Shown here: piece after piece, positions 14,633 to 64,000 of the stretch
How the letters are laid out: each line of letters begins with the position of its first letter
Position numbering within the stretch: position 1 is the first letter of the stretch
NCBI GenBank assembly: GCA_023853785.1
Contig: JAJIRX010000140.1
Span: 56,531 to 120,530, forward strand
DNA from: Psilocybe azurescens
Taxonomy: Eukaryota; Basidiomycota; Agaricomycetes; Agaricales; Agrocybaceae
DNA length: 64,000 nt
Direction of reading: 5' to 3'
Made by a program: the position numbers and the translations under genes
The notes under the pieces: generated by a model
Database searches by the model: none
What the model saw: the letters and a program-made list of their open reading frames with translations, nothing else
Told to the model about the DNA's origin: nothing

Positions 14633-15011
14633 ACAGCCAGTTCAACAGCTTGAAGGAATTTTTAAACTCCACTATGGAGACACACAGCATCTACATAGTC
14701 AAATTATATACACTCACAGTCAATAACAGTCAATATTTCTGGCCTTATCTAAACAGTGAACAAATACAAATATATATACACAGAACTCTACATTCTGTGT
14801 TCATTAAATATTTCTTTGCTTTGCAAATCTCAAACCAAAATTTCAAATTATATTAGACCCACTCCAACTAACACACAGTATTTTTGCCACCATGCCTGTT
14901 TTAATATCCACACCCCTGCCCATGTCCACTCCCAATCAATCATCATCCTACTTTATATCTTATATAATATTGCACTACTCATTCACTACCCACAAATCAC
15001 CTCATATGCAC

Positions 15012-17843: not shown

Positions 17844-18034
17844 GTTGCTGAGTGAAAATACCTGTAAAAATGGCAAAATGGCAAAATGCAAGATTAAGAA
17901 ATTTGGATATGATTAGGAATGGACCTAAAACATTCACAGACTGTGAGTTGTGACAACATGCCTCATGGAAGCCTCATGTTCATTTAGTGCCCAGCCCGTG
18001 ATAAGCACATACATCTTGCTCTTTGCCTTCAACC
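17844..18034. promoter_or_regulatory. Divergent promoter between KDZ gene and partner, copy A
   Basis: This is the 190-bp interval between the two head-to-head start codons. The same interval is 184 bp in copy B (52,684-52,867) and 183 bp in the remnant at 62,370-62,552. The preserved spacing is the only evidence for a shared promoter. Confidence 0.5.
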
Positions 18035-22046: not shown

Positions 22047-22096
22047 TTATGTAATTAGGCACTACAATCAGATAGATTATCTTTGCACACTGCCCC

Positions 22097-24464: not shown

Positions 24465-24485
24465 ATGATTTGATAGAGCCATATA

Positions 24486-24698
24486 CAGTGAGGGACAAAA
24501 CTGTACTAATGTTTTAAATATTTCCAATAAATCATGAATAACTTGGGAACTAAGAAAGCTAGAGTCTTGAAATTTTAAAGATAGGTAGCCTTGGATATTA
24601 TCTATCTAACCATATGACAACAATTATGTAATCATGTTTTCTTCCCACACTATAAATTGTTTAATAAAATAAGTACATTGGTACAGTTTTGTCCCTCT
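24486..24698 (+). repeat. Left terminal inverted repeat of Tc1-like element
   Basis: It is ~213 bp and pairs with 25,865-26,076. The outer end GAGGGACAAAACTGTA recurs inverted at the inner end (TACAGTTTTGTCCCTCT), so each repeat is itself bounded by inverted copies of the presumed transposase-binding site. Confidence 0.9.
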
Positions 24699-24823
24699 CA
24701 GTCAATTCACCTGACTTTGTTGATTATAACCAAATATATACAAATAAAATTACATGATTCAAGTGCAAAGAGTATATATACTCTTGTACATTGATTACAA
24801 CACCCCCAACTTATCATTTCACC

Positions 24824-25846
24824 ATGCACCGACTTACCATTGCCCAACGCACTCACATTATCTTTCTTCTTAATAAAGGAGATTCTGCTCATCAAATTGA
24901 AGCAACTACTGGTGTTTCCATGTCCTCTATATCTCGTATCCACAACAAACACTGTCCTGATCTTGCCAAGTCCACTGGTGGCCGTCCTCAGAAACTTTCA
25001 CCCTCCAATGTGCAGTATGCACTCCGTCTTATCACTTCTTGCAAGGCTGAAAATGCTGTTGAGGTTACCAAAACCTTAAAAGAAGTCACCAATCAGTCCC
25101 TCACACCAAAAACTGTTTGTTGGGCCCTTTGAAACATTGGTCTAAAGGCTGTAGTCAAGAAAAAACAGCCTCTACTCTCCAAACACCATAAGAGGGAACA
25201 TATGGACTTTGCAATGGCTCACCTACACTGGACCATTGATGACTGGAAGAAGTTTGGCTTTACAGACGAGACTAAAGTCAATTGTATGGGGTCAGATGGG
25301 AGGAAGTGGGTGTGTAAAATGCCAGGAGAAGCACTTTCTGATAGGCTGGTAGAAGACACAGTCAAGTTTGGAGGAGGATCTTTGATGTTTTGGGGCTGTA
25401 TGTTTTGGGAAGGAGTTGGATATGGGGCCAAGATTGATGGGAGGATGGATGCTGACCTTTATGTCTCCATTCTGGAAGATGAACTCCAACAAAGCCTTGC
25501 ATATTACAAAAAATCCTGAAGATGTCATTTTTCAATAAGACAATGACCCAAAGCACAAGAGCAAAAGGCTATGAAGTGGCTAGAAGACAGTGGTATGGAG
25601 ATTATGGTATGGCCCCCACAATCAGCAGACCTTATCCCAATTGAACATCTTTGGGTTCATCTCAAAACAAGGCTTGGAGACTATGAAAACCATCCATCTA
25701 GTATAGCAGAACTTTGGGAAAGGGTTCAGAAGGTTTGGAATGAAATTCCAGCTTCTGTGTGTCAGAATTTGATAGAAAGTATGCCTAGAAGGGTAGCAGC
25801 TGTTGTAAAAGCCCAAGGAGGATACACCAAGTACTGTTTATTATAA
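24824..25846 (+). pseudogene. Tc1-type DD34E transposase, broken
   Basis: The N-terminal helix-turn-helix (MHRLTIAQRTHIIFLL...VSMSSISRI) is followed by the catalytic core. The first Asp is in GFTDETK near 25,262, the second in the DNDPKH segment near 25,541, and the Glu in LIPIEHLW near 25,642. Reading across the frame breaks, 34 residues separate the second Asp from the Glu, exactly the DD34E spacing. Lesions are an in-frame TGA at 25,130-25,132, a frameshift near 25,512 in an A-run, a CAA-to-TAA change near 25,532 and another frameshift near 25,567. All catalytic residues survive, so inactivation is recent. The gene is 340 codons, a usual Tc1 length. Confidence 0.9.
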
Positions 25847-25864
25847 TATAGTATATAATTTTCA

Positions 25865-26076
25865 AGAGGGACAAAACTGTATCAATGTACTTATTTTATT
25901 AAACAATTTATAGTGTGGGAAGAAAACATGATTACATAATTTTGTCATATAGTTAGATAGATAATATCCAAGGCTATCTATCTTTAAAATTTCAAGACTC
26001 TAGCCTTCTTAGTTCCTAAGTTATTCATAATTTATTAGAAATACCTGAAACATTGGTACAGTTTTGTCCCTCACTG
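25865..26076 (-). repeat. Right terminal inverted repeat of Tc1-like element
   Basis: It pairs with 24,486-24,698 over its whole length with only a few mismatches, and ends in GTCCCTCACTG next to the TA duplication. Confidence 0.9.
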
Positions 26077-26344
26077 TATTGTCCTTTTGATAGATTTCAA
26101 TTGCATCTCTGTTTTTCTGTTTGCTTCATATGCTGATATTGTCTGAGGCCGAGTTTGCCTACTTGACCATCCTGCCAAGAAATGCATAATGGGTTTGAAT
26201 TTCAGGTGGTTGACATTATATTCAATCCTAAGCAAGTCATAGATCATAGCTGAATGTATCCTCTGCTGAGCAAACTACTTTGGTCAGCTTGTGGCCAATA
26301 TATTTGCCGCTGACCCTACCAGCATAGAATTACACAGCATTAAC

Positions 26345-26485
26345 TGATTTGCTACATTTGTAAGTAATTCCCACTGCACTAAAATGTATGTGGTTTCCAT
26401 AGAATTCTATGGCCCCATGTCACATGTATACATTGTGTGTGTTCTACGGCCCATGTCACTTGCTACAATGTAGCTGCCCTATGTG
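26345..26485 (-). repeat. Right terminal inverted repeat of KDZ copy A
   Basis: Read inward from 26,485 it begins CACATAGGGCAGCTACATTG. It contains two tandem copies of a GTGACATGGGGCCATAGAA-like unit and ends in a GGGAATTACTTACAAATG-like stretch. The same ~140-bp terminus occurs at 42,542 and 62,715, and a diverged form bounds KDZ copy B. Confidence 0.75.
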
Positions 26486-26663
26486 TCTTATCAGTAACAT
26501 CCCAGTCCACCAGCATATCACTCATCAGCCTGACATCCACTAATCTTGAGTGGGCCATGTTCCTTGAGGTTTTGTAGCTGGGAGAACCAAGGGCCTCTAC
26601 TTGTGATTCTCCTGGCCATTTCCCTGCTATTCATAATCATTCTCAAAGTCTAGGTGACAGGCA

Positions 26664-26963
26664 TTATAGATAGCTGGGTTGTAGGGGGGATGTGTCATTG
26701 AACTCTACTGTGGTCAATATTTGCAAGATTTCTACAGTGTCTGGTCTGCTCACAGAGCAAAACCTAAAGAGTTGGCAGCCTATGAATGCACACCACTGCT
26801 GTTCCCTGTTATTAATTTGGACTGTATATGTAGCACATTCTCTGGTGATGTGTCCATGTTGACCACATGAAAAGCACTTCTGAGAGCTAATATTTGCTGT
26901 TCCAGGGGTCAGAGGGTTTGGAGCCATTGAAAGGGTGTAAACCAGTCTGAGCTTACAATTCAA
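26664..26963 (-). pseudogene. Gag-type zinc knuckle fragment of an LTR retrotransposon
   Basis: The 99-codon minus-strand frame contains CFSCGQHGHITREC, a perfect C-x2-C-x4-H-x4-C zinc knuckle as in Gag nucleocapsid domains. No protease, reverse transcriptase or integrase was found nearby, so this is a remnant. The LTR-like repeats at 27,290-27,763 lie upstream on the same strand, which fits the 5' end of a minus-strand element. A cellular CCHC protein fragment is the alternative. Confidence 0.5.
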
Positions 26964-27289
26964 AGTGAGACAAGGAGGCCCTTATTATTGTGATTGTTAT
27001 CTGTAATAAGCTAGTATATTATACTAGTGAAGGGTAGGAGAGACACCAGATTATTAGACTTCAAGGCTTCACTTCCTAGTGGGCCAACAAGTGTAGTAAA
27101 CCTTACAAACCAACTAAGGGGTAGTATGTCCTATTAATCAGCACTATGAATCAAAGACCACCTTTAGTTTCCTACACAGATATCAAAGCAGCCCTACTGA
27201 GTGACCATGATGATTGCCTGCACCATTGACAACACTATCAGTCCTCATTCTTTGTCTGACTCATTCTTCATCTGACCCACTTATGACTC

Positions 27290-27763
27290 ACATCATACTA
27301 GTTGGTTGATACTCAAATGCTTAAATAGCCAGTAGATATGATGGTTGTTCTTTAGCTAATTCTTGAGAATCCTATCTCTACTTACTTGATAATTGGCTTG
27401 GAACACTTGAGTCCTTAATTACTTGACTATCAGCTTTATCCATGCACATGAATATAAACTTAAAGTTGTACCATATGGACAATATCATGTAATCATATTC
27501 TAACTCATTCATAGTTGAATCACATTCTGACTAGTGCCAGACTCTGACTCATGTTGGCACAATTATGACTCACTCAATAGCTAGTAGTTGTATAGCCTCA
27601 AAATGCTTAAATAGCCAGTAGATACAATGGTTGTTTTTTAGCTAGTTCTTGAGAATCTTATCTCTTCTCACTTGAAACCACTTGGAACACTTTAGTTCTT
27701 GATTACTTGACTGTTGACTTATTTCACATATGTGAATATAAATCTGAAGTCATAACAATGTGA
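27290..27763. repeat. Direct duplication of an LTR-like sequence (~195 bp x 2)
   Basis: Units at 27,290-27,480 and 27,563-27,763 share TTATGACTCAC, GCTTAAATAGCCAGTAGATA and TTCTTGAGAAT. A diverged inverted copy, with GAGTCAGAGTCTGGTACTGG, lies at about 42,110-42,330. The order and the promoter-like TTAAATA suggest retrotransposon LTR remnants. Confidence 0.5.
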
Positions 27764-28369
27764 CTTGATTTCATAGAGCTAACAAAAAGGAATAATTGGC
27801 AGAATTTCAGACAAGGTTGTGATAAACACTGTGATTTATTAAAGCAGTGTGCTGCCCGTCATGTTCAACAAGATATACAGAACAAGGGACAAGGGAACAA
27901 TGGACAATTGTTTAACCCAGGTTGGCAAAGGATTTCAGCAAGAAGTGCATGTATTTGAACAAACAAATATGAAAGATGATGAGTACCAAGTATGTCAACT
28001 GATAAATATTCTTAAAGAAGTCAAATCAACTGAACATTCTGGAAGATATTTGCTATTGACAAGAAACAGAAAGCCATTGCACATATACACATGACAATAG
28101 ATAAGAATAAAAAGGCCCAACTCACTGTTGAATCACTAAAAGACAGCCCAAAAGTAAAGAGCCATTAAATATAGAGCCAGAACTCTCTAGGACATTGGAT
28201 TCTTTACATGCATATACTTTCACGATATCACTGCTAGGTGTAAAATAACTGCTGAACAGGAAGGAACGGAGACACAGGGTTTCAGTCCTTAGTCTTTCCC
28301 ACAAACAATTCAGGAGTTAATAATGGTCAGTGGTTTTCAGAAACAAAGTAATAGCCGCTGCGGCTCTCT
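27764..28369. other. No recognised gene; one 81-codon open frame
   Basis: A + strand frame at 27,849-28,094 is open, with no motif I recognise. It may be part of the adjacent retrotransposon remnant. Confidence 0.3.
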
Positions 28370-42541: not shown

Positions 42542-42685
42542 ACATAGGGCAGCTACATTGTAGCAAGTGACATGGGCCATAGAACGCACACAATGTATAC
42601 GTGTGACATGGGGCCATAGAATTCTATGGAAACCATGTACATTTTAGTGCGGTGGGAATTACTTACAAATGAATGACTCAGAGCC
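42542..42685 (+). repeat. KDZ-type terminal inverted repeat (outer remnant, left end)
   Basis: ACATAGGGCAGCTACATTG followed by tandem GTGACATGGG-like units and GGGAATTACTTACAAATG matches the reverse complement of the copy A terminus at 26,345-26,485. Confidence 0.75.
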
Positions 42686-45886: not shown

Positions 45887-46315
45887 CACATAGGGAAGTT
45901 ACATTGTAGCGAGTGACTCGGTCCATAGAATGCATAGAATGTATACGAGTCACTCGGTGCCAATGAATTCTATGGAAGGTAACTATAACTAATAGGATAA
46001 TAGACCACATACAATATAGCGGCTGCGTCAATGCTACAAATGTATACATATCAGCATGTTGGTGCCCATCTCGGGCTACGGCCACTAAAGTTGTCGGGTC
46101 GGCCCCGTGTAACTCGGTCAATTTTAGTACTACGTTCGCCATCAGGACACGCAACATCTGCCATCTTTTAAATACATTTCCATAAATTTGCATATATTAC
46201 CATAGTATTATTCAACTCAAGCTGCCTCGAAGATTCCGATGGCGGCGCCGATATAAATCGGCCGAGTATTGTCCTGCCACATTACGGCTTGGTCCCGATA
46301 GTACACACCTCATTA
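45887..46315 (+). repeat. Left terminal inverted repeat, KDZ copy B
   Basis: It pairs with 61,085-61,510. The first 100 bp contain two tandem ~40-bp units, each with a GAGTGACTCGG / GAGTCACTCGG core and a CCATAGAAT-like arm, which are likely transposase sites. A ~100-codon frame (minus strand) runs through it and is also open in the partner repeat. Confidence 0.85.
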
Positions 46316-46680
46316 ACGAGCTTATAAACAAAATGAGGAGACTGAAAACTGCATGTAGCGCGCACAAGTTATTAAATATTAAAATTGTTCCAAACAACAT
46401 TAGGTTGTGGCCAAAGAAATTTTGTTCGGCCCCGATAACTATCGGCTTATATATGTGATATATTGTTAAGCAACTTTGGGAGCAACATGCCCGACGATAT
46501 CATCGGCCCCGTAGGGCATCGGCCATGTGTCAACCACAATAATCCAATATATGTGCTGTGCAGTGAAGTTGGCCAATGGAATTTATGATGGTCTACATAT
46601 ACATTTTTAAATTGGTAGGCAGACCGGTTGTGCAGCTACACTAGGCCTCGTATAATGTCAAGTATGAAAATGTTTACAAA
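46316..46680. other. KDZ copy B subterminal region
   Basis: Non-coding DNA between the inverted repeat and the Ser/Asp-rich gene, with CGGCCCCG sites at 46,427 and 46,504. Confidence 0.5.
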
Positions 46681-48782
46681 AACATGTCACCGGCATCGTC
46701 ATCACCTGCAGACTGTCCTTCACTGTTGGGATCCATGTCATTTTTAGTCAACTGGCAGCCAGGTGTGATCAACAAAATCGAAAAAAGAAGGGGAAAAAGG
46801 ACGGCGAGGGAGAGTAATTCTGGAGGGGGTCACAGTGTGTACTGCAGTATCTGCATCGACCGCGTGGGTCAAAGATTCGGCGGGAGAGCTGCGTCGATCG
46901 GCCGACGGGCCCGTGAAGCGAGTGGCAGATTCATCATCATCAGAAGAATACCAAGCAGCGGCAGCGTCGGCCACGCCGACAGGAGACACAAAAGAATTCA
47001 AAGGAACACTCATGCGCTGCAAATGATTGCCCGGGACCAGTATATCATCCTCATCACTATCTGTAGAATCCGACCAAACACCGGCCGCTTCTGCAACCCC
47101 AACTAAACGCTCATTCTCCCGGTGTGCAGGCATTGCGATATGAGCATCGGCCATGGCTGGTTCGTTTATGGAGGAGTCGGGCGCATCCGAAGCAAGATCA
47201 TCGTCAGAAGAGATCGCCCATGCATCAGCTAAAGTGTCAGCATCGGTTGAATGTGGGTGCGTAGCGGCTTTGTTATCAGATTCGTCGTCGGATGAGTCTT
47301 CTAACCAGAGTGCAGCCGTCTGGGCAGGCAGATGTCGGGTTGTGTCAGAAACGTCATCGCTGGAGACTGATGATAGATTCCACATTGCCGCAGCGTCTGC
47401 GGCCGTGCTAACGAATGCTAAACTCGGGGCCGACATTTGAACATCAGGCACCGAGGACACTTCGGTAATCGGCCTTGAACCAGAGTCGTTAAAAGACACG
47501 GATTGTGCAATAACAGAATCTTCATGCTTCATAACACTCTCTGTAGCACTCCAAGTTGTCGTTCGAACATTGGGTAATGGTTCCAGGCAGTCGGGAATGG
47601 AATGGGTGTGGACGTTGTTTCCCGAATCGGCCCCAATAGCCGACATTGCGGCCGATTCGATAGAAGATACATAATTGGTTGAAGATTCTTGTCGACGTTG
47701 ACGACCATCGGGTAGCGACTGTGAGTAGCCAGAATGAGGGATGTTCCGACTTTTTGGATCGTTCGCTAGAGCCTTCAGTTCAGTCTGTGTAAGTTCCGCC
47801 CCCCACGTCCATTTTTGAGAAGATATGGGAAGGGATAGAAGATCAGAAAATTGTTCGGCCGCATTCATCGCCATACGCCTTGATCGACGTGTAATCAAAA
47901 TGTTGTCAATGGTGTCAGGATATAACATAGTCGTCGCTCGCCGGTGCAGGCCCGATGCCGATCGCGTAGCAGAGTCTTCATTTCCATGCGCGGGATCGCC
48001 TGTTTGCTGTTCTTTCAACACGACCGCTTCATGTACTTGATGAAAACCGGCTGCCCACCTCATATTCAAATCACTATTGGTATCCGCATGAATGTGAGCG
48101 GCCTGTGCTGCGGTCGACACGGCCATTAAATTTTCACGCAATTCTAGCGCCAGATTAAGGTAATTTTGACAGTGGTCGCAGGTGGTGTCAGCACCGACAT
48201 CGGCGGGGGGCCGCGGCAACGTGTCGGTCACGATTTCCCGCAGTCCGCTTCGTGGCGTGAGTGTGAAGGGCATCTTTGATTATGAAACTGTTCAGCGTAT
48301 ACTTCATTGATACCTCATTTTCGCTATGCCACCAATCATTCAAGTAATTGTCGATGAGACGAACCGGACTGTCCTTATCCACACCGGCATCTAATAAAGC
48401 TTGGAAATTGTCGGAGAATTTGAGTGGGTAATGTTCATAAGGGATTTGCACAAGTGAGGCCGCTAACGACCGAATAATTATAGGAATGGTGACCGATAGG
48501 CCAAGTGCCGATGCCCGGCCAACAAAAGACAAGACCAACTCCTATATCGATATCGGATAAAAATCAATACTTCAAGTTAAATTTATTACATACAACCTCG
48601 GCGCACAGGAAGTGTTGTTTCCACTCCTGTTGTTCAATGGGCGACACGGCGATGACGAGAAGTGCGGCCCGAAATCTTGACTCAGCATAATATACAAGTT
48701 CTTGGACGTCAGCGTGAATTGAATAGTGGGTGCCAGTCAAAGTAGTAAGTGGGTTGAAAACTATAAGTTCTTGGTTGGACAT
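46681..48782 (-). CDS. Ser/Asp-rich KDZ-element protein with repeated A-x-W-x2-SSDD motif, copy B
   Basis: Exon 1 runs from the ATG at 48,782 (MSNQELIVFNPLTT) to about 48,594. A 52-bp GT-AG intron (48,542-48,593) follows. Exon 2 begins ELVLSFVGRASALGL, shifts frame once near 48,250 and stays open for 509 codons to 46,744; homology with copy A suggests the true end is near 46,683 after another shift. Features are GVDKDSP, NYLNDWW, CDHCQNYLNLALE, HEAVVLKEQQTGDP, then a low-complexity acidic C-terminus with five to six A-x-W-x2-SSDDD units, for example DAWAISSDDD and GVWSDSTDSDED. There is no enzyme signature. Hydrophobic-plus-acidic-Ser motifs could bind SUMO or be kinase targets; this is inference. 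Confidence 0.6.
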
Positions 48783-48847
48783 GATCGATTGAATGCAAGA
48801 TGAGTGTGAATAGATAATCTATTTAATCATCATATCGAATTACATAA

Positions 48848-51800
48848 TCATATGAATGGAGACACATAACGTTGGCAACTATTTTTAAATGTAAGATCAG
48901 CACTGATCGCATACTTGTGCCATATATGACTTTGTCGACAAGCATAGGCTTTCGGGCCCGGATTAATATTTGCCATGTCCGATGCTTTTGCCCACTCTTC
49001 GCGACGATGAGCGAAATATCGAACCGTCCATATCATTTCGTACTCGACTAAGATAATTTCTTCATTCCATCGATTTTTCTGCGCCCGAGCGCGCAACCAA
49101 TGGACGCGGTTGACTATAAAATATATTGTCGTTATTTAAAATATGAAAGAAATGAACATCTGATTCACATTCAGTTTGAAATCGTTGTTGAACGTCGGGC
49201 CCGTTTGACCGATCGGTATCGGCGGCTCCGACTGCGTCATTCAGCAAATGCCAACGGCCGGTCCTCCATATCCATGGCAAATTGATTTTGGATGAACCCG
49301 GCACATTGGGTTTCCAAATAGCGGTGCTTGGTTTTAGATCGTTCACGTGTTAGCTCGCGAAATATGTGGAGGAACTCTTGCTCGCATTTAAGGGCAACGA
49401 GGGCGGGACCGACATGCCGAGTATATACGAGCGTGCAGAATTTTTGCATGATTCAGTGATTTGACTTTTTTCTGGCCATCATTGCGAATGCTGGATCGGC
49501 TTCCTGTACGAACAACATAGCGATATAAAAATGAGATGTCGGCCACAATATCCCGAATACGCTTGATATGGTTTCGAGCTTGATTTTTCCTAATGCCCAG
49601 TTCTAAACTAGCGAACCTTGGTGGAACGTTGAAATTGGAAGGAAGTGACAGTATCTGCCGTTCGGGAAATATTGCAGTTGAAGTCGACTGTGTAGCGCGG
49701 GGCAGAGTGGGCTCGTCACTGGTATTGGGCCCGCGTTGGCCATCTTGATCGTTATCGGCAATGTCGTCAGAACTCGGCCTCATCTTGGAAATGGACTAGC
49801 TCAGTGCTGTTCCCGATATCCGGCACCTCTGCCTCTTGCTGCAAAAGTTTAACTTGCCCAAGCATTGAGGTGAGTACTTGACGCAGTTGATTAACTACCT
49901 GACGGTCTTGTTCCGTAGATGCTGTCCCCAGCCGACGAACTTTGTCTTGTAACTCCAATCTAATTCGGAATAAACGGTCACATTTCAGTTCTTCGTTACA
50001 TATTACTTACTGTTTTTCTTCGACTTGTATAGTTAATCTAAGCCAGTTACCCACCGGACTATCGGTGCCGGTGTCGGTGTCGGTGTCGGTGCCGTCGACC
50101 GCATCATCGGTCAATGAATGCGGCATTCGGGCACCGTAGATATCCATTCGCTTAATGTCGACAGTGCGCATTGCTTCCACACTTTGAATTTCGTCTTCCC
50201 ATTCATTAAGTGTTTCCGGCGCCATATCTGCAGATAATTCCGTGAAATAAGAGTTGGCCTGGCTCACCATGCTAATCGCATCTGCATATCTGATGCACAG
50301 AACTTGCGTAATTCCAAGCATTTTTTGAAGTTTGAATCCGTAGTGTGGTCGCCGAGTACTTCTTCTCTGTGCGCCAGACTTGCTGTCCGAACCGAGGGCG
50401 AAATTGCGTTGAGGTTCGACCATAGCGATTCAAGAATTTGACCAGCAACGATTGCAGCACCGGGAACAAAAGTGGTTGCATAGCGAAAAAACAAACATCC
50501 TTGTGCCCATGAACATGAAATAAGTCAATCGCCTGGTCAATAATTAGACCGGCCGGGATCATATGGCCAATTCGTTCAAAAAGATACACAATCCATGTGC
50601 AGACAATGTCATATATGACAAGCAACCCTTGTTCAGGTTCAACGTGTGTTGACTTGATAGCTTGCAGTAACGCATAATCAATATTCTTTTGCTGCTCCCC
50701 TCTGAACAAGTCAGCCAACGTATTGGGTGCAAAGCAGCCATGACAAGCACATGCGAAGGCCACCTTGCCTGTCCTATCACATGCTTTTGTTGATAGTAAA
50801 GCGTTCATAACGGCTTTAAATGTGTTTTCGCATGGTGCTTTCTGCATTGTAGATGTCAGTCAAATTATGTCGGCCAAATCTCGGCCCCGATTCACACTTA
50901 CTGTTAATCGGTCAATGGCAGATTGTAAGAAATCTTGATAATGAACACGGTTGGGTGCCATTCCTGCCCCATCTATCAACCAGACGTCGTCATCACATTT
51001 TTGCCGAACATGATTGGCTTTGAAATTGCCATCGGTGACAAAAATACGTTTGTAGACAGATCTGTACAGAAGTGTTGTTATATCAGAAATTCAATATTTG
51101 TAAGTTGCACTCACCGATTGGGATCGTTCTTCCAATCATCGGGCAAGTTTATACCAGGTTGGGGGCAGGTCGGGCAATACAGAGATAATGATCCAGCTGG
51201 CGGGTTGCGAGGATCTTCTTTTTGTGTCCATAGCCGGCCCATCGTAATTTTTTTAACCATCGCCAAAGGCGCGACATTCGGCGAATTCATGATACAAATT
51301 GACAATGTCGGCCCGCCCGATCGGCAATGTCATTCTGCGGATAAGTTGGTAAAATTGGTACGCTGATGCCTTCAGCTCCAGATTAAATAGCCGAAATTGA
51401 TCCATTAGTTGAACGGAGAAGAGAGTGCGTATCCTGGTAAAGCTGGCCGGTAGAAGTCGACAAGAAACCAAATCCAACGGGACCGAATGTTCGCCTCGGC
51501 AATGACAGGTTACCATGGCCATATAATGAATTCCATTGGTGTGGAGAATCCTTACATATGTGTTGTTTAAACCATCAGCTGAAGGGACATTTGGCTGTAC
51601 CCAAGGGGTGTTGAATTTACTTTGTTGACGAATATTATCGGCCCGCTGACCGACACTTCTTCGGCCACATTACCAACATTGTTGTCCGTTTCTAAATAAG
51701 GGCCGAAATCTTGACATCGGCCTCGGGATCGTCGCCGTCCAAATCATCGGCCGTATGTTCTTCAACATAATCCTGATTATCTTCGTCGAGACCTTGGTAG

Positions 51801-52683
51801 CATTGATTCAGAAAACGAAAAGCTTGTTCGGCGCCACGTTCATCTGACACCCAATCGGTTGCATATGCAGGATTTGAATCACTGTACGCAGAAGGGTGCG
51901 AGGCCGATGTATCAGCTGAATCTGTTTTTGCAGTCGGCCCCGCCTCGGTCGCGGCTTGCATTTTATTTAATTTTGCCTGTTCCCGTCTGTCCGGATGTTT
52001 CTGTAATGATTCTAAATGATTTCTTTGAAACTGAAGGGAGTCGCATATCGCCAAGCCAGCACAATGTGGAACCAATATGTAGCAGCCGACTTCCCATAAC
52101 TCGGCTCTGCGAAGTGGGTTTCTGCCCAACATTCAATTCTATGAAAAGGAGCAGACCGGTGGGAATGCCTCATGCATTTGCAGCAGATAGGCTCTGAAAG
52201 TGTACAATCAATGCATCTCCATATTGCCCAGGAGCCAGTTGAACAGGATCGGCAATGCTGCTTGTCTGCCGGCCAGGTTTCTCGCGCAAGTGATGCTTGT
52301 AGTAAATCTTCTATTCTGTCGACCCATTCTCTCATGTATTCTTTTTGGGTCTGAGAAAGCACTGTGTAAGCTTTTATATAACCTATGTGATAATCCATTA
52401 CCTTGGTTTTTCTGTGGCGGGGCATATTCCAAAAGTCCGGAATGCTTCCACCGTCAGTGTATATATTTTGGTTCACTGATTGATGCCTGAGATCTGCCGG
52501 GTCATTTGACATACTATTCTCTTTTATTGTGGAGACTAGAGGGACAAAAATTCCTCGTTGGGATTTGGGACCACTGAAAACATCGGAGAGATGTGTAACA
52601 GCCTGAGAAGCTTCAACACTTCCTTGAACCAGGTGTTTCGACTTTCTTTGCCTTTTATTAGCTGGTCCGTTTGAAGAGTTCAT
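48848..52683 (-). CDS. KDZ transposase with CxC2 cysteine cluster, copy B
   Basis: From the ATG at 52,683 the first exon encodes a basic stretch (ANKRQRKSK) and a CxC2 cluster at residues 144-181 (CRSC, CIDC, CCKC and following His). The core follows: LYCPTCPQPGINLP near 51,160; VTDGNFKANHV near 51,020; a VIYDIVCTWIVYL segment near 50,610; IDLFHVHGHKDVCFF near 50,500; and GQILESLWSNLN near 50,430. The C-terminal WLRARAQKNRWNEE lies near 49,080 and the end is at 48,848. KDZ transposases catalyse cut-and-paste movement; Asp/Asp/Glu in these blocks are the presumed catalytic residues. About six single-base frame changes interrupt it (near 52,113, 51,708, 51,260, 50,488, 50,265 and 49,790) with almost no substituted stops. 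It is either a young pseudogene or a victim of sequence indels. Confidence 0.85.
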
Positions 52684-52867
52684 GGTGCAAAGAAGAGAGT
52701 GCTATATACATTGCTCCAGCATGTAACTGAGTACGAAATAATGCACATGAGGTTTCCATGAGGCATGCAGGCAAAAATCTCACCGTGCTCATGCTTCTTA
52801 ATTCATAATCACCCCCATTGCGCTTTATTTCTCATTCATCCATTTTCAATCGTATTTCATCAGTGAC
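52684..52867. promoter_or_regulatory. Divergent promoter, KDZ copy B
   Basis: The 184-bp interval between head-to-head start codons has the same spacing as in copy A and the 62-kb remnant. No further element could be assigned. Confidence 0.5.
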
Positions 52868-55031
52868 ATGGCTACAGCAATCGAGTTACAGAACAAAAAA
52901 CGCAGACCGAAGATGTTCAATTCAGAAGAACTCCAACACATTCTACCTTTCAAAGAATCTTTTGTGAATGCGCCGGACAGTCAAAGAACGTCTCTCCATC
53001 TTGACAAATCACATATTGGTTGCAATATTTAATTACTGGGACAGCCAGGGGAAAAGGGCAACAGATGACCTTGAGAGTCGCCGTTGGACACAGGTATGGC
53101 CATATACATAAGCTGGCTCTGCGTCTTTCTGAATATGGTTCAGGCAGTCATCACCTGGTGCTCGAATAATTGGAGGGCAGAAAGAGGAATTGCTCGGAAG
53201 TCCAACCACTTTCGACCGAAGAGACCTGACGTTCTCTGGTACAATCATCAGGCGATGGTTTGGGCAGAAATTGCTAATATTATGGGGATCGAAAAAGCGT
53301 CCGCCGACACAGTTGGTTGGTTCAGGCATCGGACAGCGGCAATGAAGAACATTTGGACACGCATGACTGAGGGTGAACGCACGGCCATTGACCAGGGAAG
53401 TGGAAATGTGTGCAATGAAAGGGTACAATGAACATACGCAAGCAAGGTGAGTAAATCGCCACTTACTTCATGCCTTTATCTGAACTGCATTTAAGTTTGG
53501 CGAAGAAATATCACGTCAAGAGGATTGATCAATCAATGAAAGATCAGTATAATGAAATGGGGATGACGAGTGTGGTTTTTGTATGCTTTCCACTGCCTGA
53601 CGGCAAGATAGCAGTTGATGGGTATGTGAATGCCCGATTACGTCCGAGTCGATATCGGGACCGATGAACGTTGGCCGAAGTTCATGTCGGGGCCGATCAA
53701 CATTCACGGCCGGCATATCACGACCTAGTACGCAGACAACGGCTGACATAGTTTTAGATACGAGCAAATATCAAACTTGATGGATATTCCGGCCCAATCG
53801 TTCATGAGTATTTATAAGGCCGACGTCGACCGGATGAAACAAAATATATTGGATTATGTGACCGGGTTGCAAAATCTCAAGAAACACGGACACTTAGCGT
53901 TTACAGTCAACAGAATACCGGCTAAGAAACCAATATTTACATTTGGAAACACAACCAATGGTTTCCCAATCATACCTATTCCATTGCCAGACAAAGACTG
54001 GACCAAAAGTGATTTGGAAGAGGTGTTTAGTTTATATGTGAAGACTCATTACAGTGGGTACAGTCAGTGATATACTCGGGCCCGACACATCTGAAAGATT
54101 AGTAGAACTCGCCACCGGTGGCATAACCGACAAGGTGCCGTACACCGAAATCGGAAAGGATCAGAACACTTTTATCAAATCAAAATATCTGCCTTCGAAC
54201 ATGAAGTTTGCAAATCCCAGAAATCTACATAAAGAAGACATACAGGCATTTTTTGCACATTTAGTGCACCGACAGCAAATATATCATCCACAGGACACAT
54301 TTAGGTTCCAGTGCATTAAACATAAACATGGACCGGTGCCGACTCGATATTCAGACGATCAACCGGTAGCCGACCGGGGCCGACGCAAATCAATTCATAG
54401 AGAAGAACATAAAAGAAAACACCAAAATCAAATTATTCCGCAAGATAATCTCCTGAAACCTGTTATGAAGCCACCTGCAGAAACATCTTCAATGACACCA
54501 GCCCCGATTAACCTCGGGGCCGAGCCGACACAACGGAACGGCAAACACCCTGAAGTGGAAAATGTCGCTATCGAAAGACAATTCATGACATCCACTGTTG
54601 GTCAGCATCTGGTGTATGTCACTCAAGATGTTATGGAGTGCATGTATCCTGCTGGTACAGAATACCCACTACCGGTCAATGGTCCGGCCGATGGTATGCC
54701 TATGTATTTAGTTGATTCAACTGAATATGCGGCATATTGCACAACACAAAGTGAAAGGAATCATCATATGGTGGCCCATGATTTACATCATATTTCAGAT
54801 TCTCAAATTGATTCCACCTTACTGGGTGCCACCATGCCAACCCCAAGGGCAACACCTATGCGAGGGCCAGGGCCAACTGCACGCTATACAGGATCCTCAA
54901 ATACAAATGTCATGCCAAGTAGTTTGAAGAAAGTAAAACCTAAGAAAAAGGTTGCCTTCAAAGGTGTTGAAATAGCGTCTGCAGTGATATCAGGTCCAAA
55001 GTCACTTAGGAGGAGCGCTCGGAATAAATGA
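52868..55031 (+). CDS. KDZ-linked accessory protein, copy B (five exons)
   Basis: The exons are 52,868-53,093, 53,144-53,446, 53,496-53,621, 53,758-54,053 and 54,103-55,031, joined by GT-AG introns of ~50-136 bp in phase. Visible segments are MFNSEELQHILPFKE, TVKERLSILTNHILVAIFNYW, the VAIFNYWDSQGKR segment, RPDVLWYNHQAMVWAEIANI, KQNILDYVTGLQNLKKHGHL, GFPIIPIPLPDKDW and a C-terminal LKKVKPKKKVAFKG. The basic tail suggests nuclear or DNA-associated action. Single-base shifts occur near 52,972 and 53,425. The family is a recurrent, uncharacterised neighbour of basidiomycete KDZ genes as far as this window shows (three copies, always divergent from the transposase). No catalytic motif was seen. 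Confidence 0.65.
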
Positions 55032-56978
55032 CCATCCCCAAGCCAAGTCCTACACCAAGGACAAAACAAAGTTAATAGTTACAAGAAATGGGACTATTAT
55101 ACTACAAGAAATAAAATATATACATGTGTCCCTAACATGCTATAGAATTCAAGATTATACTATCACTGACGAGCCTTTTTAGTATTTCCATCAGTGGCTG
55201 AACTCTGAGTGCGTGGACGTTTGCCCAAATGGCCAGGAGTTGGGCTGCGTGACATTGTTCTTGAAGGGCTAGGGAGACGTAAGACGAGGCGAACGACGGA
55301 GGTCAGTTCTATCACGGTCATGTAGAAGTGGTGGTGCAAGAAGAGACGGCGACGGAAGAATGATCATCGTTGACGGGGCCGGTTGAGCAATATCGGGGCC
55401 GATTTTGATCGGCCCCGATTCCGACGATGCTACCGCAGTCAGATTTGCGGCAGCCGATCCAGTGGGGTCCGAGGTGGTGTCGGTCGGTGGAGACGTAACG
55501 GAGCCGATGCAATTCGGCCCTAATGTTGTCGATCCGCTCAAAGTTGGATTTGCGGCAGCCAGCGTCAATAGGGTGCATGAGAGAGTCACTCGGCCCCGAC
55601 GGCCGCTAAGTATCATTTTCCGACTGCGACTGACCTTCTACATATGCAGGGGCCGGAAACAAATTCTGAGGAAGTCATGTCTGCATGTATTATGGCTGAG
55701 TCCACAGATACAGGGATAGGTTCTATCGGGGTCCCATCAACAATCGTTATGGTGCCATATAAAGCTTGCTCCTGTGAGTTATTCGGGGTTGGAGGAATTA
55801 ATTGCACAGATGGGACAATTGCTGAACGAACCGAAGAAAGGTCTATCTTCCGTGCTTTGGCTGCATGGCGTTCTGATTGATTAACTTCGGGGTGGATGGG
55901 GTCGGGAGTCGAGTCAGCAGAGTTCGGGGTCGCACAGATAGAGGTGGCGACGATTCCATCCGTTCGCGGTATCGGGGCCGATGACACAGGGCCGATGACG
56001 GTATCTACTGGGCGGTCCTCTAAGTCTTCTGATATGGGACCGGCCCCCAAATAGTCGGCAGACGGCGCCGACAGTTGCGCCCGTCGGCCCCGAATCACCC
56101 TTGTCCTGCAACTCCGTTTGAATTTCTTCGTCCACCAGGGTTGCAATTCCTCGGCCGGTCACAGGGAGTACGGTACTTTGGATGGAACGTAGAACTTGCA
56201 TAATGTCCGCATATTTGTCCTCGAAGTGTCCCAATTTCTCAAAGATATTGTCGATCTTCCCCTCCAGCCGAGTGACCCGATCGCCGAGTCTAGCATTTGG
56301 CCCATGAATAGCGGATTGCTCCATTTGAGCGCAGGCTTCGTTGCAGTCATATACCATTGACAATGCGGTGGACGCAGTGGTTGTGGCAGTGACCACTTTG
56401 GAAGTCAGGGGCGTCAACATGAGCGATAAGGTCGTTATCATCTTCATCTTCGCTCATAGCTTAAAAAAAATTTAAAGTCGATATGTATTTCCTGAAGTAA
56501 TGTACATACCACGATGTTTCCCCTTTCCAATGCCGAAAATCGAGGTGCATAATCTTCGTCGGCCGTGGCCGCATCAACTTGCTGCGGCCGACTGGTCGTT
56601 CGAGGTCTTACCTCACCCATATATTCCGGTGGAGTCCACCAACTCCATGCTGGAGTTGGTGGAGTCCACATGGAGTTTGGTGACTTTTTTGGCAGGTGTA
56701 CCAGCCATTTAGAGGTGGAGGCTCCACCTGGAGTCCAGCTGGAATCCGCTCATCCTCCATGTGGGCCAATGTGGAGGATGTGGAACTCCATGTGGACTCC
56801 ATGTGGAACTTCATCTGAGTCTCATCCTCCATATGGATTCCATATGGATTTGACTCAAGAAGCATGTATATCAGCATTAATACACTATTTCAGGGTCAAT
56901 TTCTAATGGACTCCAGGTGGAGGATGATCCCCAGATTTTATTTATATTTTATTTATATTTTATTATAATGTAAAAAAA

Positions 56979-57062
56979 AAAAGCACCAATAGGAATTGAA
57001 CTCGGGCATCCGAGAATGCCGCACACTGACGTTAAACCAACTAAGCTATAGAGCCTTTGTAA
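56979..57062 (-). ncRNA. tRNA-like (SINE-type) RNA polymerase III module, copy 2
   Basis: On the minus strand TAGCTTAGTTGG matches the A-box exactly. GAGTTCAATTCC resembles a B-box and a run of ten T follows. It is homologous to 10,720-10,797, with the shared GATGCCCRAGTTCAATTC core. Confidence 0.6.
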
Positions 57063-57149
57063 TTCATCAAATTTTGATGGCCTACATACCAATACGGCTA
57101 TTTACTCGGCATTTCTCGGCAGTGACAAATAACGTCACGTATGTGACTT

Positions 57150-57945
57150 ATTGATGCCACGTCGGTCCGTTAATTATTTCCACCACCCCACCTCTTCCTC
57201 CGACCACCACCACCCCGCTGCCGCCGTCGTGCGTGCCCCCACCTCGCCGTCGTCGGTCGGAGCCAGGCCCATGCCAACCCGACCGACCGCATGCATCGCA
57301 ACGAACCGAGACCGACGAAGAACAGACGGACACCCGAACGAAGGGAGGTGAGTACGGAACGAGACGGAACGAGGCGGGTAGAGAACGAGGAACGAGGCGA
57401 GCGAATGCGGAACGAGGGGAACGAGGCAATGCGATGCGAACGAGAACGAGGTCGCGACCCCAGGTAAGTCGCGAATTCGCATGCCGCCGCCATTAACCGC
57501 TCCCCCTCTTTTCGTGTAGGCCGATGACAACGACAACGACGGGTACGTACGGTACGTACAACGATGGTGACGGCACGCAGGACGCGTACGGACGACGACA
57601 CCAACGTGTCGCAGACCATGACGACGACGCGTACAACGGCCACGACAATGACGACAACGGCCACAACGACCACGACCAGCGCATCGACGGCCACGACAAC
57701 GACGTGTGACGGCCACGACAACAACAACAACGTGTACAACGACGACAACGCGTGTACAACGACGATGACCGAGCGACGTGTACGACAACGACAACGACGT
57801 GTACGACAGCCACAACGACGGCGACAACACGTATGACAGACGCAGCGGACACGACAGCACAACGTACGGACACGCCGGACGTGTACGACGGCCACCACAA
57901 CGACGACAATGCGACGGCGGGCTACGAGCAACACGGCCATCCTCT
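57150..57945. repeat. GC-rich low-complexity block with conserved tag, copy 3 (inverted)
   Basis: ACGACAACGACG-type units keep long frames open on both strands; they are judged non-coding. The conserved tag is at 57,165-57,290. Confidence 0.7.
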
Positions 57946-59841
57946 CGCCCCTTTTTCTTTTTCTTTTTTAATCTTGTTTTCTCTTTTTTCATGTTCATGT
58001 GCTTCTATATTTATTTGAACCAACTATGTACCCTCTCGCCTCCTTTTTTGTCTGTTTTGTATGTTTTTCTTTTATTTCTTTTGTTTTATATATTTTTATA
58101 TATTTCTTTTTATGTTTCAGTGGTGATGAACTTTGCTAGTAGATAATACAGATAATAATGTAGTATATAGTTTTTAATATATTATATATACATTCTTACA
58201 TGAATTTACTCTAAGAAAATACATTCCAATTAAAATCTGGCTATAGCTGGACTTTGTGAAATTCAATAAGTCTGCTCTCTGATGGCCTAAGCTGGAATAT
58301 TGTTACCCAGGTATGGAGTCCAGGTGGATTCTAATTGAACTCCACCTGGACTCCACCTGGACTCCACCTGGCCTCCAGTTGGATTCAAGTGGAATTGCTT
58401 GAAGTCCATCTGGAGTCCACCTGAACTCCACCTATCAAAGATAACTTTCTGAACACTTGGATATGTTCCAGATGGAGTCCATGTGGAGTCCACCACTTCT
58501 GTATGGAGTTGGTGGACTCACATGAGTATATGGTGGAGGTAAGTACACGGTCGTTCCTGCAGGCTGTTGTTGGTCTGGAGATGTAGGCTGACGTCGTCGA
58601 GCTTTACGACGTATGGCCATCGGTACTTCATCATCATTGTCACCGTCATTCTTCTCGACGGCCGACCGGTCTTCACGAGATTCCACAACGGCCAGTGGAC
58701 GTTTCATTCTTCGGGGCCTTGATCTTGATCGGCTGCGGATTGGATTGGATACACCACCGGGGCCGAGACTACATTTCACTTTCTGTTTGCTGCACCGATA
58801 ACACGCCCCTCGGCCACGGGCCCGATCGTAACAATTTGCCTGTGCTTTGACGCATCGGTCGCATGATTCCCTGTTCAAGCGGCCCTGTTCAGGCTGGGGG
58901 CGTACTTTTCGTCTTCCTCGTGACCCGTACTGTCGATGGGTGACATTTCGCGTTCAGAATTACTTGCCGAACTTGATTTCCTCCCTCGATAGGACATCTC
59001 GTCGGCCGTGTCACGTCGGCCCCGATTGGACACATCCTTGTGGCCGGGATCTAGAGGCACTCTGAGGACAGGAATATGTCCTTTGGCCAGACAAATGGCT
59101 GCAGTTCCTGTGCGGATGGAACCTCCGGAATATGTTCTTCATGATTCGGTGCGTGCTGGAAAGATTGAGATCGGGCCCGTGGTGACTGACGCCGAGAATC
59201 GATGATATCTTGCTGAGTCGTTTCATTACGTTTTGTAACATCGGGGTTATTCGCTTTACCGTACTGTATACTTGGCATATGTAAATTTTTGGATGGAAGC
59301 TCCTGTACTGTAGTGCTTTTCGGTGGCCGGGTAGTCGGGGCCGATATAGTGTTGTCGAAGGTCGCCATGTTACGAAGATGCTGCTGTATGAAATCTGGAG
59401 TGCGACCAGCTTGTTTGACCTCTTTCCAAGCTTTCAGAAACCCCCAGAAAAACATTGGACTGTCAAAATCGGCCTCAAGTGTGCGACTTCGGCGCCGGTC
59501 ATTCTTTGCAGAAAGAATATCTCATGCTGCAATAATTCAATCCTATGTCGAAATGCTTACAACGTTGTTATGACTTACCAGTTTGCCCTTCATTTCCTTA
59601 ATTTTTGTAGAAACGGTTCCGGTGGTCAATCCGTCAGCGGATGTTGTTATCTAAATAGCGAAGTGTTCGCTCAAGCTCGGTGGCAGACGGAATAGCGGTA
59701 TCATTGGACATGGTATTTGTTTTGTAGTTTTCAGAAATTTATAGTAGATGTTGATGCTCGGGGGCGAGTCGGCTGATGGTGAAAGAAGACGACGGGTAAG
59801 GGATACCACAAACGTCTGTTGCGTTGTAAATCAACAAACAC

Positions 59842-60992
59842 GTGATACAAAGAGTGGCAAACAATACACATACTCGGGCGCTGACGTTATCTGCGGCAAT
59901 CTTTTCAAACATATCGTATTCTAGTCCACCGAAAACAGAACATATGGATTGTGTTAAACAAGATACAATCTCCGAAACCCACCTCACGAAATCGACACTC
60001 CCTGACACCACTCATAGTACATCGGCTCGATCAATCCATGGGTACCGCTTAAATAGCCAACCGACCCGTACTGTAGAGGCTTCCTCAACCAGCGAAAGAT
60101 GTGACATTCGGCCTCAGCCGACAATCAGCCTTCCTGCTGGTTTTACTTCATTGCCCGGGCCCGATGGGAACACGATTTATGTTCCCGAATTTTTAGTTTC
60201 CACTGCACACAAAGAATTCACCATTGCGAGGGCACGAGCAGAGCTTCCACTTGAAAACAGTCAAGGTGGTGTAAGTTTACTTTATTCGTTTTATTTGGAT
60301 GATAGGAGGACTACGATATATTGTCATCAGCAACGTATAGTCGTTGAGTATATATATCGGGGCCGATAAGCCGCTTTTGTTATTGACAGCCGATATTCCG
60401 GGGGCCGATTACGGTCTGTTTGGTCGGTGTCGCTGCATTCATCGGGGGCCGAACATGCGCGAAATGTCAATTCATCGGCTTCATATCTCGGGGCCGGTTT
60501 TATTTAAACCGCATGTTTCTGGCCGATCTTTTGCATTCAGATATTTACCATGTCCAACATCCTAGCTCCATTCTCTCCCTTTCTCTGGCTATTTTCTATA
60601 TGCTCACTTATTTTACAGTCTCAAAATAGCACTGGGGCGAAATTTTGTCATTCTTGGAAACAGGGTATTGGTCCCAGCCGACCCAGTAAGCTGAAATGTA
60701 GTACAGGTCAAATAGCAATTAATATATATATTTTTAGCATTTAACCGAACGTGAACTCCTTCAGATAGATACTGAGGTCCATTATCTCTGCCACACACTT
60801 GGCATATCCTACAAGGACGCCAGCCATCGGCTTTACATGTCTGAGTGGGAAAAGCTCAAGGCGAATGACTGGGCCCAAAAATTATTTAAGGACCTCGATA
60901 ACCAATGTTTCCGAGCCATCGAGAAGTTTGACAAGAAATTAATTGCTCTCTCAGCCGATCTTCCGGCTGACCAGCCGCATACAGTGGAATGA
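59842..60992 (+). CDS. KDZ terminal small gene, copy B (two exons)
   Basis: Exon 1 (59,842 or a later ATG at 59,941, to 60,270) ends at a GTAAGT donor. Exon 2 (60,738-60,992) starts HLTERELLQIDTEVHYL and includes YKDASHRLYMSEWEKLKAND and a predicted helical IEKFDKKLIALSADL tail. The conserved core of exon 1 is PAGFTSLPGPDGNTIYVPEF. The 467-bp intron is long for this genome and is rich in CGG(G)GCCG sites. A homologue is next to the terminal repeat at 42.5 kb. No known domain was recognised. This gene looks the most intact in the element. Confidence 0.6.
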
Positions 60993-61084
60993 TTTGTAGT
61001 TTTTCTATTCTTTCTACACCATATCTACACCATATTCAATCTAAATACTCATTTGTGTGTAAATTTCACTGCTAAGCTGGGTAA

Positions 61085-61510
61085 TGCGGTATGTAATATC
61101 GGGACCGAGCCGTATTGTGTCGGGACAACAATCGGCCGATTTATATCGGCGCCGAGATTGGAATCTTCGAGGTAGCTTGAGTTTCATAATAATATGCTAA
61201 TATATGCAAATTGATGGAAATGCATTTGAACGATGGCAGATTTTGCGTGTCTTGATGGCTAACTTAGTACTAAAATTGACCGAGATACACGGGGCCGACC
61301 CGACAACTTTAGTGGCCGTAACCCGAGATGGGCACCCACATGCTGATATGTATACATTTGTAGCATTGACGCAGCCGCTATATTGTATGTGGTCTATTAC
61401 CCTATTAGTTATAGTTACCTTCCATAGAATTCATTGGCACCGAGTGACTCGTATACATTGTATGCATTCTATGGACCGAGTCACTCGCTACAATGTAACT
61501 TCCCTATGTG
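61085..61510 (-). repeat. Right terminal inverted repeat, KDZ copy B
   Basis: It is the reverse complement of 45,887-46,315, nearly identical over the outer ~280 bp and more diverged inward. A ~100-codon frame beginning at 61,204 (MQIDGNAFERWQILRVLMAN) is conserved with the left repeat. Confidence 0.85.
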
Positions 61511-62714: not shown

Positions 62715-62850
62715 CACATAGGGCAGCTACATTGTAGCGAGTGACATGAGCCGTAGAACACACACAATGTATCTGTGTGACACGGGGCCAATGAATTCTA
62801 TGGAAGCTGCGTACATTTTAGGGTGGTGGGAATTAATTACAAATGCTGTG
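62715..62850 (+). repeat. KDZ-type terminal inverted repeat at left end of a further element
   Basis: CACATAGGGCAGCTACATTG and the tandem GTGACA..GGGCC units match the copy A terminus. The element extends to the right beyond the window. Confidence 0.75.
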
Positions 62851-62885: not shown

Positions 62886-64000
62886 GGACTGGGTTCAGCC
62901 CCGAGACGGCTGGTCAAATACCCGATGCTGATGTAGCAGCTCATGCAAATCCAACTGTTCAATGACTCAAAATACAGTATATTTGCATAATTAAATGGAA
63001 TTTAATGATTGGAAAAATGGTACAGCTGTGTAGTGTTAATTTATGCTTAGCAGTTGTATCAGCTCGGGCCTGATGTGGCCGATTAAATGAACTGGTGCCG
63101 ATGATGCAATGCAGACAAATCTGACCATTTATTCAGTCAGAATACTGAATATTTCTATAACTGAAGCAAATCAAATAATGGGAATAGTTGTACAGAAGTG
63201 CAGTATACATTTAGTTTATTCTCGGCAGCTGCATTAGCTCGGGCCCGATGTGGCCGATTAAATGAACCAGTGCCAATGATGCAGTGCAGACAAAACTGAC
63301 CATTTATTCAGTCGGAATACTGAATATTTCTATAACTGAAGGATATTAAATAATGGGAATAATTGTATAGCAGTGCAGTATACATTTAGTTTATACTCAG
63401 CAGTTGCATCAGCTCGGGCCCAATGTGGCCGATCAAATAAACCGGTGCCAATGATGCAATGCAGACAAAACTGACTACTTATTCAGTCGGAATACTGAAT
63501 ATTTCTATAACTGAAGGATATTAAATAATGGGAATAATTGTATAGCAGTGCAGTATACATTTAGTTTATACTCAGCAGTTGCATCAGCTCGGGCCCAATG
63601 TGGCCGATCAAATAAACCAGTGCCGATGATGCAATACAGACAAAACTGACCACTTATTCAGTCGGAATACTGAATATTTCTATGACTGAAGCAAATTAAA
63701 AATGGGAATAATTGTACAGAAGTTCATTATACATTTAGTTTATACCTGGCAGTTGCATCAGCTCAGGCCTGACATGGCCGATTAAATGAACCGGTGCCGA
63801 TGATGCAGTGCGGACAAAACTGACCATTTATTCAGTTGGAATACTGAATATTTCTATAACTGAAGGAAATCAAATAATGGGAATAATTGTACAGCAGTGT
63901 AGTATACATTTAATTTATACTCGGCAGTTGATCAGCTTGGGCTTGATGTGGCGAAATAAATAACTAGGTGCCGATGATGCAGTGCAGACAAAACTGACTA
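62886..64000 (+). repeat. Tandem satellite, ~175-bp monomer, at least six copies
   Basis: The landmark AGCTCGGGCC (or a variant) recurs at 63,061, 63,236, 63,411, 63,586, 63,760 and 63,934, i.e. every 174-175 bp. Each monomer has GATGTGGCCGAT, GATGATGCAATGCAGACAAA, TCAGTCGGAATACTGAATAT and GTATACATTTAGTTTAT. A diverged monomer precedes 63,061. The array directly follows a KDZ-type terminus and continues past the window. Confidence 0.9.

Follow-up and report, generated by a model that had tools for sequence, protein, structure and literature searches.

CGG-N2-CCG arrays and a candidate Zn2Cys6 binder encoded by the same KDZ transposons in Psilocybe azurescens

To our knowledge, anti-silencing proteins that are encoded by transposable elements and co-evolve with arrays of their target motif have been documented mainly in plants. 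In the VANC/VANDAL system of Arabidopsis, as described in the accessible part of PMC5735166, an element-encoded DNA-binding protein is paired with a short motif that is dense only in its own family, differs between families and forms arrays by tandem repeats. In the Spm/En CACTA elements (PMC2613891, accessible part), the accessory protein TnpA is likewise element-encoded and reads numerous short sites, the retention of which is required in non-autonomous derivatives. Some Kyakuja and other fungal DNA transposons carry a TET/JBP gene that is thought to counter methylation (PMC12730594, accessible part). Here we describe copy B, a 15,624-bp KDZ transposon at positions 45,887-61,510 of a 64-kb stretch of Psilocybe azurescens DNA (the window, to which coordinates refer unless a contig is named). 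Copy B shares the listed features of the two plant systems, its binder being a predicted one, and resembles the TET/JBP-carrying Kyakuja and other fungal transposons of PMC12730594 as a mushroom KDZ element with 7-bp target duplications and CA..TG termini. The words 'zinc' and 'subterminal' are absent from the main text of that paper, and among the titles and abstracts searched and the accessible parts of PMC7641404 and PMC12810828, we found no earlier work that connects site arrays in KDZ elements with zinc-cluster genes, although the founding KDZ paper (PMC3918813) may mention the association.

Copy B is densely covered by CGG-N2-CCG sites. The core CGGNNCCG occurs 42 times between 46,100 and 61,297, with the consensus R-T-CGG-NN-CCG-A-Y, against 6 occurrences in the remaining 48 kb of the window. 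The extended forms CGGGGCCG and CGGCCCCG make up 21 of these (46,100, 46,427, 46,504, 47,425, 50,882, 51,935, 53,688, 54,375, 54,515, 55,374, 55,394, 55,410, 55,591, 55,973, 56,085, 58,758, 59,017, 59,336, 60,358, 60,489 and 61,290) and are absent from the other 48 kb; an earlier note on this DNA had listed 20 of them, all at their exact positions, and the site at 55,374 is the one addition. Dinucleotide shuffles of the element (n = 300) gave 0.36 ± 0.58 extended sites (maximum 2) and a mean of 3.2 core sites (maximum 9), whilst a third-order Markov model gave 4.8 core sites (maximum 11 in 100 runs). Two further full-size elements, on contigs C714 (54,283-68,341) and C33 (160,522-174,398), carry 45 and 55 core sites against Markov expectations of 5.5 and 4.5. 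Other inverted spacings in copy B lie within the shuffle range (N1 4, N3 6, N4 4 and N11 2, versus 2.7, 2.9, 2.9 and 3.0), and N0 (CGGCCG) is raised, at 18 versus 2.9. Sites per tenth of the element number 6, 1, 5, 3, 2, 4, 8, 0, 7 and 6, coding exons included; the empty tenth corresponds to a nested 1,955-bp insertion, which also makes up most of the interval without sites from 56,085 to 58,758. Across the 70.4-Mb, 937-contig assembly searched, the average per 15.6 kb is 2.3 for CGGNNCCG (10,357 sites in the 70.37 Mb counted) and 0.29 for CGGGGCCG (1,312 sites). A CpG-rich composition as the cause of the sites is disfavoured by both the shuffle and the Markov nulls, and a host-wide motif by the lack of genome-wide enrichment of CGGNNCCG over its reversed control (10,357 versus 10,984).

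The sites are also conserved beyond the level of the DNA in which they lie. Copy B and the C714 element are 83.5% identical over 13.5 kb; of the sites alignable from B to C714, 30 out of 41 have stayed intact where local identity predicts 9.3 (32 of 43 versus 9.5 in the reverse direction), and from B to C33 the figures are 8 of 20 versus 1.7. Sites were excluded from these counts where the alignment was poor, covering fewer than 70 of the 100 flanking bases or showing less than 55% identity: 1 of 42 from B to C714, 2 of 45 in reverse, 22 of 42 from B to C33 and 41 of 55 from C33 to B, this last figure indicating that density has been kept though many positions are not shared. Control words with two CpGs were intact in 19 of 43 (15.4 expected) and 22 of 65 (22.4 expected) cases between B and C714, and a control taken at every seventh position in 724 of 1,925 (745 expected). 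Per base, with the two halves averaged, conservation from B to C714 is 0.91-0.94 in the triplets, 0.85 in the adjoining T/A, 0.83 in the NN spacer and 0.65-0.82 in the further flanks; against C33 it is 0.68-0.88 in the triplets and 0.47-0.69 in the spacer, depending on pair and direction. These sites are under selection.

One could ask whether composition, coding constraint or the shared ancestry of the copies has left such arrays as a by-product, since members of a lineage do have a common ancestry, the C33 sites have partly multiplied as tandem repeats within an open frame, and no copy B site falls outside open reading frames (ORFs) when these are called at a 60-aa threshold. We give this explanation almost no weight: third-order Markov expectations are exceeded, conservation of the sites runs above local identity, short relatives devoid of long ORFs carry them too, and outside ORFs of at least 100 aa, 8 of 12 sites are intact from B to C714 versus 2.3 expected, a result that disfavours coding constraint as the cause. 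The multiplied sites at L041 (C33:168220-168760) form tandem repeats of ~21-24 bp in an open frame that yields GPT/GAD peptide repeats; here, the DNA sites apparently shape the protein sequence.

Copy B further encodes a putative zinc-cluster protein. The cluster CDRCVKAQANCYDRARGRGACYRCSKQKVKC, with the spacing C-x2-C-x6-C-x9-C-x2-C-x6-C given in the earlier note, lies on the minus strand at 58,771-58,863 within an ORF at 58,435-58,878. An upstream part of the gene lies at 59,051-59,455 (minus strand; FFWGFLKAWKEVKQAGRT...), and a downstream part at 55,914-56,447 (minus strand) contains a leucine-spaced stretch, RVTRLEGKIDNIFEKL, that looks coiled-coil-like by eye only and has no Pfam match. 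In C714 a single open frame runs from the FFWGFLKAWKEVKQ region, which resembles the upstream part, through the zinc cluster, and the C33 frame is similar. A protein search over 1,517 candidates returned a sole relative, Psilocybe cyanescens P0001, at 70% identity, and the ORF at 55,914-56,447 matches the C-terminal part of P0001 (48% identity over 62 aa, E 2e-14). When the cluster was compared with solved structures, its first half weakly resembled the second half of Pho7 (E 0.25), and for its other half the weak match was to the first half of Ppr1 (E 0.79), so that the order of the halves looks swapped in this lineage. Single-sequence structure modelling of the zinc region gave a mean predicted local distance difference test score of 55, too low for the model to be of use.

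Site density follows this gene through the genome. There are 31 zinc-gene matches of the copy B type; we examined 30 loci, representing 28 places (C323 and C311 are counted twice, and L009 is copy B itself). All 24 loci with an observed/expected CpG ratio of at least 0.8 have 6-15 CGGNNCCG in ~3 kb (shuffle 0.25-1.2), and the six loci with ratios of 0.16-0.72 have 0-4; in some of these decayed loci (L013, L025), the most enriched words include products of CpG transition, for example GGCCAA and ATCAGC. By contrast, of the KDZ loci examined as DNA (the best 30 of 170 matches, scoring having covered 150 of 256 candidates), 27 have 0-1 CGGNNCCG, the exceptions being C714, C447 and C854. Counting only those without a B-type zinc gene, 27 of 28 have 0-1, and the remaining locus, C854, has 8 sites and another zinc-cluster gene.

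Within the window, a decayed relative, copy A (roughly 12,000-28,000; KDZ match at 20,260-20,562 on the plus strand, terminal-repeat match at 26,395-26,485), has a CpG ratio of 0.24 and carries the decayed sites proposed for it earlier: CGGNNCCG derivatives with one CpG lost by transition number 15 versus 2.6 in shuffles, and those with both lost 54 versus 20.8. Everted CCG-N2-CGG (8 versus 0.13) and direct N8 CGG pairs (7 versus 0.12) are likewise overrepresented in copy A, perhaps from local repeats.

Short relatives carry the sites as well. Elements C673, C254 and C220 have B-type ends, perfect 7-bp duplications and no ORF above 139 aa, and consist mostly of 155-bp units whose consensus holds AACTCGGCCCC; they contain 2, 4 and 4 intact CGGNNCCG versus 0.03-0.15 expected, and site copies in which one or both CpGs are gone are also in excess. 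Retention of sites in elements without genes favours a role in cis, with the protein supplied in trans. It also bears on whether the same binder might serve transposition alone, pairing the ends or loading the transposase as TnpA would, with methylation uninvolved. The subterminal position of these tandem arrays keeps a TnpA-like role in view, as do the terminal repeats of copy B, both of which hold sites: CGGNNCCG lies at 46,100 and 46,243 in the left repeat (45,887-46,324, plus strand) and at 61,290, 61,147 and 61,100 in the right (61,073-61,510, minus strand), two sites being identical across the arms and a third intact in one arm only. Full-size elements, however, carry sites across the whole body, coding exons included, and this spread favours VANC-like marking or anti-silencing over a purely terminal function; we consider a role confined to transposition rather unlikely, if the most credible of the alternatives.

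The pairing of zinc gene and site array recurs in at least two other KDZ lineages of the same genome, each with a different zinc cluster and a different CGG arrangement. We scanned the best 30 KDZ loci for all CGG/CCG pairs at gaps of 0-16 and assigned dyad labels by hand (weakest accepted p 1e-5, strongest rejected 0.007). An inverted N2 dyad was found at C714 and C447, an inverted N3 dyad at eight loci (C547, C644, C438, C642, C546, C711, C712 and C648) and a direct N3 dyad at C854. The other 19 of the 30 loci show no enriched CGG dyad (best p 0.007, where unrelated stretches of the window reach 0.002), which disfavours such dyads as a general KDZ feature. Against Markov expectations, C644 has 38 inverted N3 dyads versus 2.2 and 3 inverted N2 versus 1.9, C854 has 31 direct N3 versus 6.0, and copy B has 6 inverted N3 versus 5.2. 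In 1.5 kb of C16, which represents another family within the C854 lineage, direct N3 dyads number 8 versus 0.54, and copies of the CCGGAC word of C854 number 0 versus 0.55. The matrix of dyad geometry by lineage is mostly diagonal, not clean.

The zinc clusters differ in parallel. That of C854 reads CLRCKRKKLEC...CYYCALSHMAC and has 25 matches in the genome; the lineage-2 zinc protein had no protein match at E 0.001 among 1,814 candidates. In the inverted-N3 lineage the cluster reads CRSCIRAQIPC...CMECNAKR/KKKC, and zinc matches, apparently two paralogs, flank the transposase on both sides in at least C547, C644, C438, C546, C711, C810 and C643. Zn2Cys6 clusters follow the spacing C-x2-C-x6-C-x5-12-C-x2-C-x6-8-C, as do lineages 1 and 2 directly; the lineage 3 cluster was read as two pieces in C644. 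A zinc gene of any of the three families lies within 12 kb of all 11 dyad-positive KDZ loci and of none of the 19 dyad-negative ones (Fisher 1.8e-8, the loci not being independent). Conversely, of the 79 zinc hits left after removal of overlapping duplicates (31, 20 and 28 by family), 20, 10 and 21 lie within 12 kb of a listed KDZ match. A genome search with the Zn_clus profile gave 47 matches at E 0.1 or better, with the element genes not among them, and so says little about other zinc genes near dyad-negative KDZ loci.

This association bears on who reads the sites. A host Zn2Cys6 regulator exploited by the transposon would be one candidate, given those 47 Zn_clus matches, and yet three dyads coexist in one genome, each linked to its own element gene, and CGGNNCCG is not enriched genome-wide; we deem a host reader very unlikely. 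Somewhat less improbable, but still doubtful, is that the KDZ transposase or another element protein reads the sites and the zinc gene is a passenger. Copy B does have other ORFs without an assigned function, and a CxC2 cysteine-cluster region precedes intact KDZ elements in Pleurotus (PMC7641404, accessible part). Against this reading, dyad geometry varies with the zinc gene family, and the 19 KDZ loci without any of the three zinc genes also lack an enriched CGG dyad. Moreover, CGG-triplet dyads are the usual, textbook target of Zn2Cys6 regulators.

Drawing on the observed enrichment, site-level conservation, co-occurrence of dyads and zinc genes, lineage-specific dyads and arrays in short relatives, we propose, with a probability of roughly 0.65, that each of these KDZ lineages encodes a Zn2Cys6 protein predicted to bind a lineage-specific array on its own DNA, in the manner of VANC/VANDAL or TnpA/Spm. 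In the copy B lineage, which encodes a KDZ transposase and a putative Zn2Cys6-type protein with a coiled-coil-like stretch, the latter would most likely bind inverted CGG-N2-CCG as a dimer, and selection would maintain dense sites throughout genes, spacers and terminal repeats. A protein covering the whole element would mark the DNA as self; it may hold the element in an open, expressed state in spite of CpG methylation, as VANC does, and perhaps also help the transposase to find the ends, as TnpA does. More tentatively, and at slightly less than even odds, the genome may hold several parallel self-recognition codes, each joining its own zinc protein (in one lineage two paralogs flanking the transposase) to its own arrangement of CGG triplets (inverted N2, inverted N3 or direct N3), as a co-evolving, sequence-specific anti-silencing system that originated in fungi independently of the plant VANCs.

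Several observations weigh against this proposal. The 1,955-bp insertion splits copy B's own zinc-cluster gene, so that B would need protein made by other copies; the pairing of three zinc genes with three dyads does lend further support to the self-encoded binder posited in the earlier note. The annotated protein P0001 lacks the second CxxC of the cluster, and matches to PF00172 (cut-off 21) are marginal: 21.1 bits in B over just 13 of 39 profile positions, 18.0 in C714, 15.8 in C33 and none in P0001. Dyads are also enriched across lineages, direct N3 being raised in B (25 versus 9.3) and C33 (28 versus 8.3), and inverted N2 in C854 (12 versus 3.0) and C16 (3 versus 0.20). Moreover, by nucleotide sequence the 30 KDZ loci form five groups, three dyad-positive and two dyad-negative, with a looser threshold merging C854 with C714/C447; few independent events therefore underlie the association. 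In addition, 28 of the 79 zinc hits have no KDZ match within 12 kb among the KDZ matches listed. At doubly intact sites the spacer bases are mostly identical (53 of 62 between B and C714, 25 of 30 between B and C33); the spacer is therefore less constrained, but not free. Finally, some dyad-negative KDZ loci are CpG-intact (ratio up to 1.0), indicating that CpG loss can be escaped without the zinc system; the ratios near 1 in B, C714 and C33, in a window where other stretches go down to 0.05, are for this reason not evidence of protection. Of the outcomes that the earlier note named as refuting, neither a motif density at the level of shuffled sequence nor an absence of the sites from related families with the zinc-cluster gene was observed. 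Taken together, the observation reported in the earlier note is confirmed, and its interpretation, here widened to three putative lineage-specific systems, is partly supported.

The limits of copy B, correctly placed in the earlier note, are defined by an inverted repeat pair of 439 nt (93% identical) with the termini CACATAGGG...CCCTATGTG, which are common to other elements in the genome; this terminal-repeat group has at least 41 matches, many as facing pairs (40 of 97 candidates scored). The flanks ACACACT/ACACATT are identical at 6 of 7 positions, and perfect 7-bp duplications flank C714, C33, L073, L074 and L075 (duplications and flank identities were judged by eye). The KDZ transposase domain lies at 50,470-51,054 on the minus strand (PF18758 match C136:107000-107584, 93.7 bits); the ORF at 50,272-50,847 alone scores 77.8 bits (E 1.2e-21, cut-off 26.6), placing the element in the KDZ superfamily. 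No MULE transposase domain was found among ten scanned ORFs of copy B. No Pfam family matched a 509-aa acidic ORF (46,744-48,273, minus strand) or the opposite-strand ORFs at 53,084-55,031 (plus strand), the latter with several sites inside. The nested insertion (56,593-58,547) is absent from C714, bears GGTCGTTC at each edge and contains no CGGNNCCG; it also has 11-bp TGGACTCCACC-type repeats and resembles stretches near 9.0-9.3 kb and 44.5 kb. Beyond copy B, one end of a further element from copy B's terminal-repeat group (62,715-62,809, plus strand) is followed by a 175-bp tandem array (63,036-63,998, plus strand) that reaches the window edge and holds intact and decayed CGGNNCCG, including the satellite site reported earlier, which is real and lies at 63,240. 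A further terminal-repeat match lies at 42,542-42,631, where no element was delimited.

If the proposal is true, the same self-marking logic operates in fungal KDZ elements through a classic fungal DNA-binding domain, and three dyad geometries coexist in one genome. The way in which transposons distinguish their own DNA from that of the host would then become directly testable, the predicted proteins and predicted sites being in hand, and nature would have supplied a set of Zn2Cys6-type proteins, each with its matched target, for learning how half-site spacing is set.

Among known systems, the six-cysteine spacing, CGG dyads and coiled-coil-like stretch recall fungal Zn2Cys6 regulators of the Gal4/Ppr1/Pho7 class, from which the apparently swapped half order sets the copy B lineage apart. 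Kyakuja shares the termini and target duplication, but for two Laccaria Kyakuja families terminal inverted repeats are stated to be absent (PMC12730594, accessible part), and copy B is not filed as Kyakuja because of its 439-bp inverted ends. Nor does it have the TET/JBP gene: of 15 matches in the genome, none lies on contigs C136, C714 or C33, or within the listed zinc-gene elements. Those 15 matches indicate that this mushroom also has TET genes of the transposon-linked kind. In Spm/En, the sites are subterminal (a 12-bp motif in En-1; PMC2613891, accessible part), whereas copy B is covered over its whole body, and its termini are CACATAGGG rather than CACTA. As in VANC systems, motif density is specific to the family, the cross-enrichments above aside, and the element encodes a candidate binder. 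Unlike VANDAL, the element is KDZ rather than Mutator-like, with a Zn2Cys6-type protein and CGG dyads that are inverted or direct. The VANC21 motif lies mainly in non-coding DNA (PMC5735166, accessible part), whilst copy B sites also fall within ORFs; binding and hypomethylation, characteristic of VANC, are putative for the KDZ system. The element would work like a VANC or TnpA system, yet is a member of neither family.

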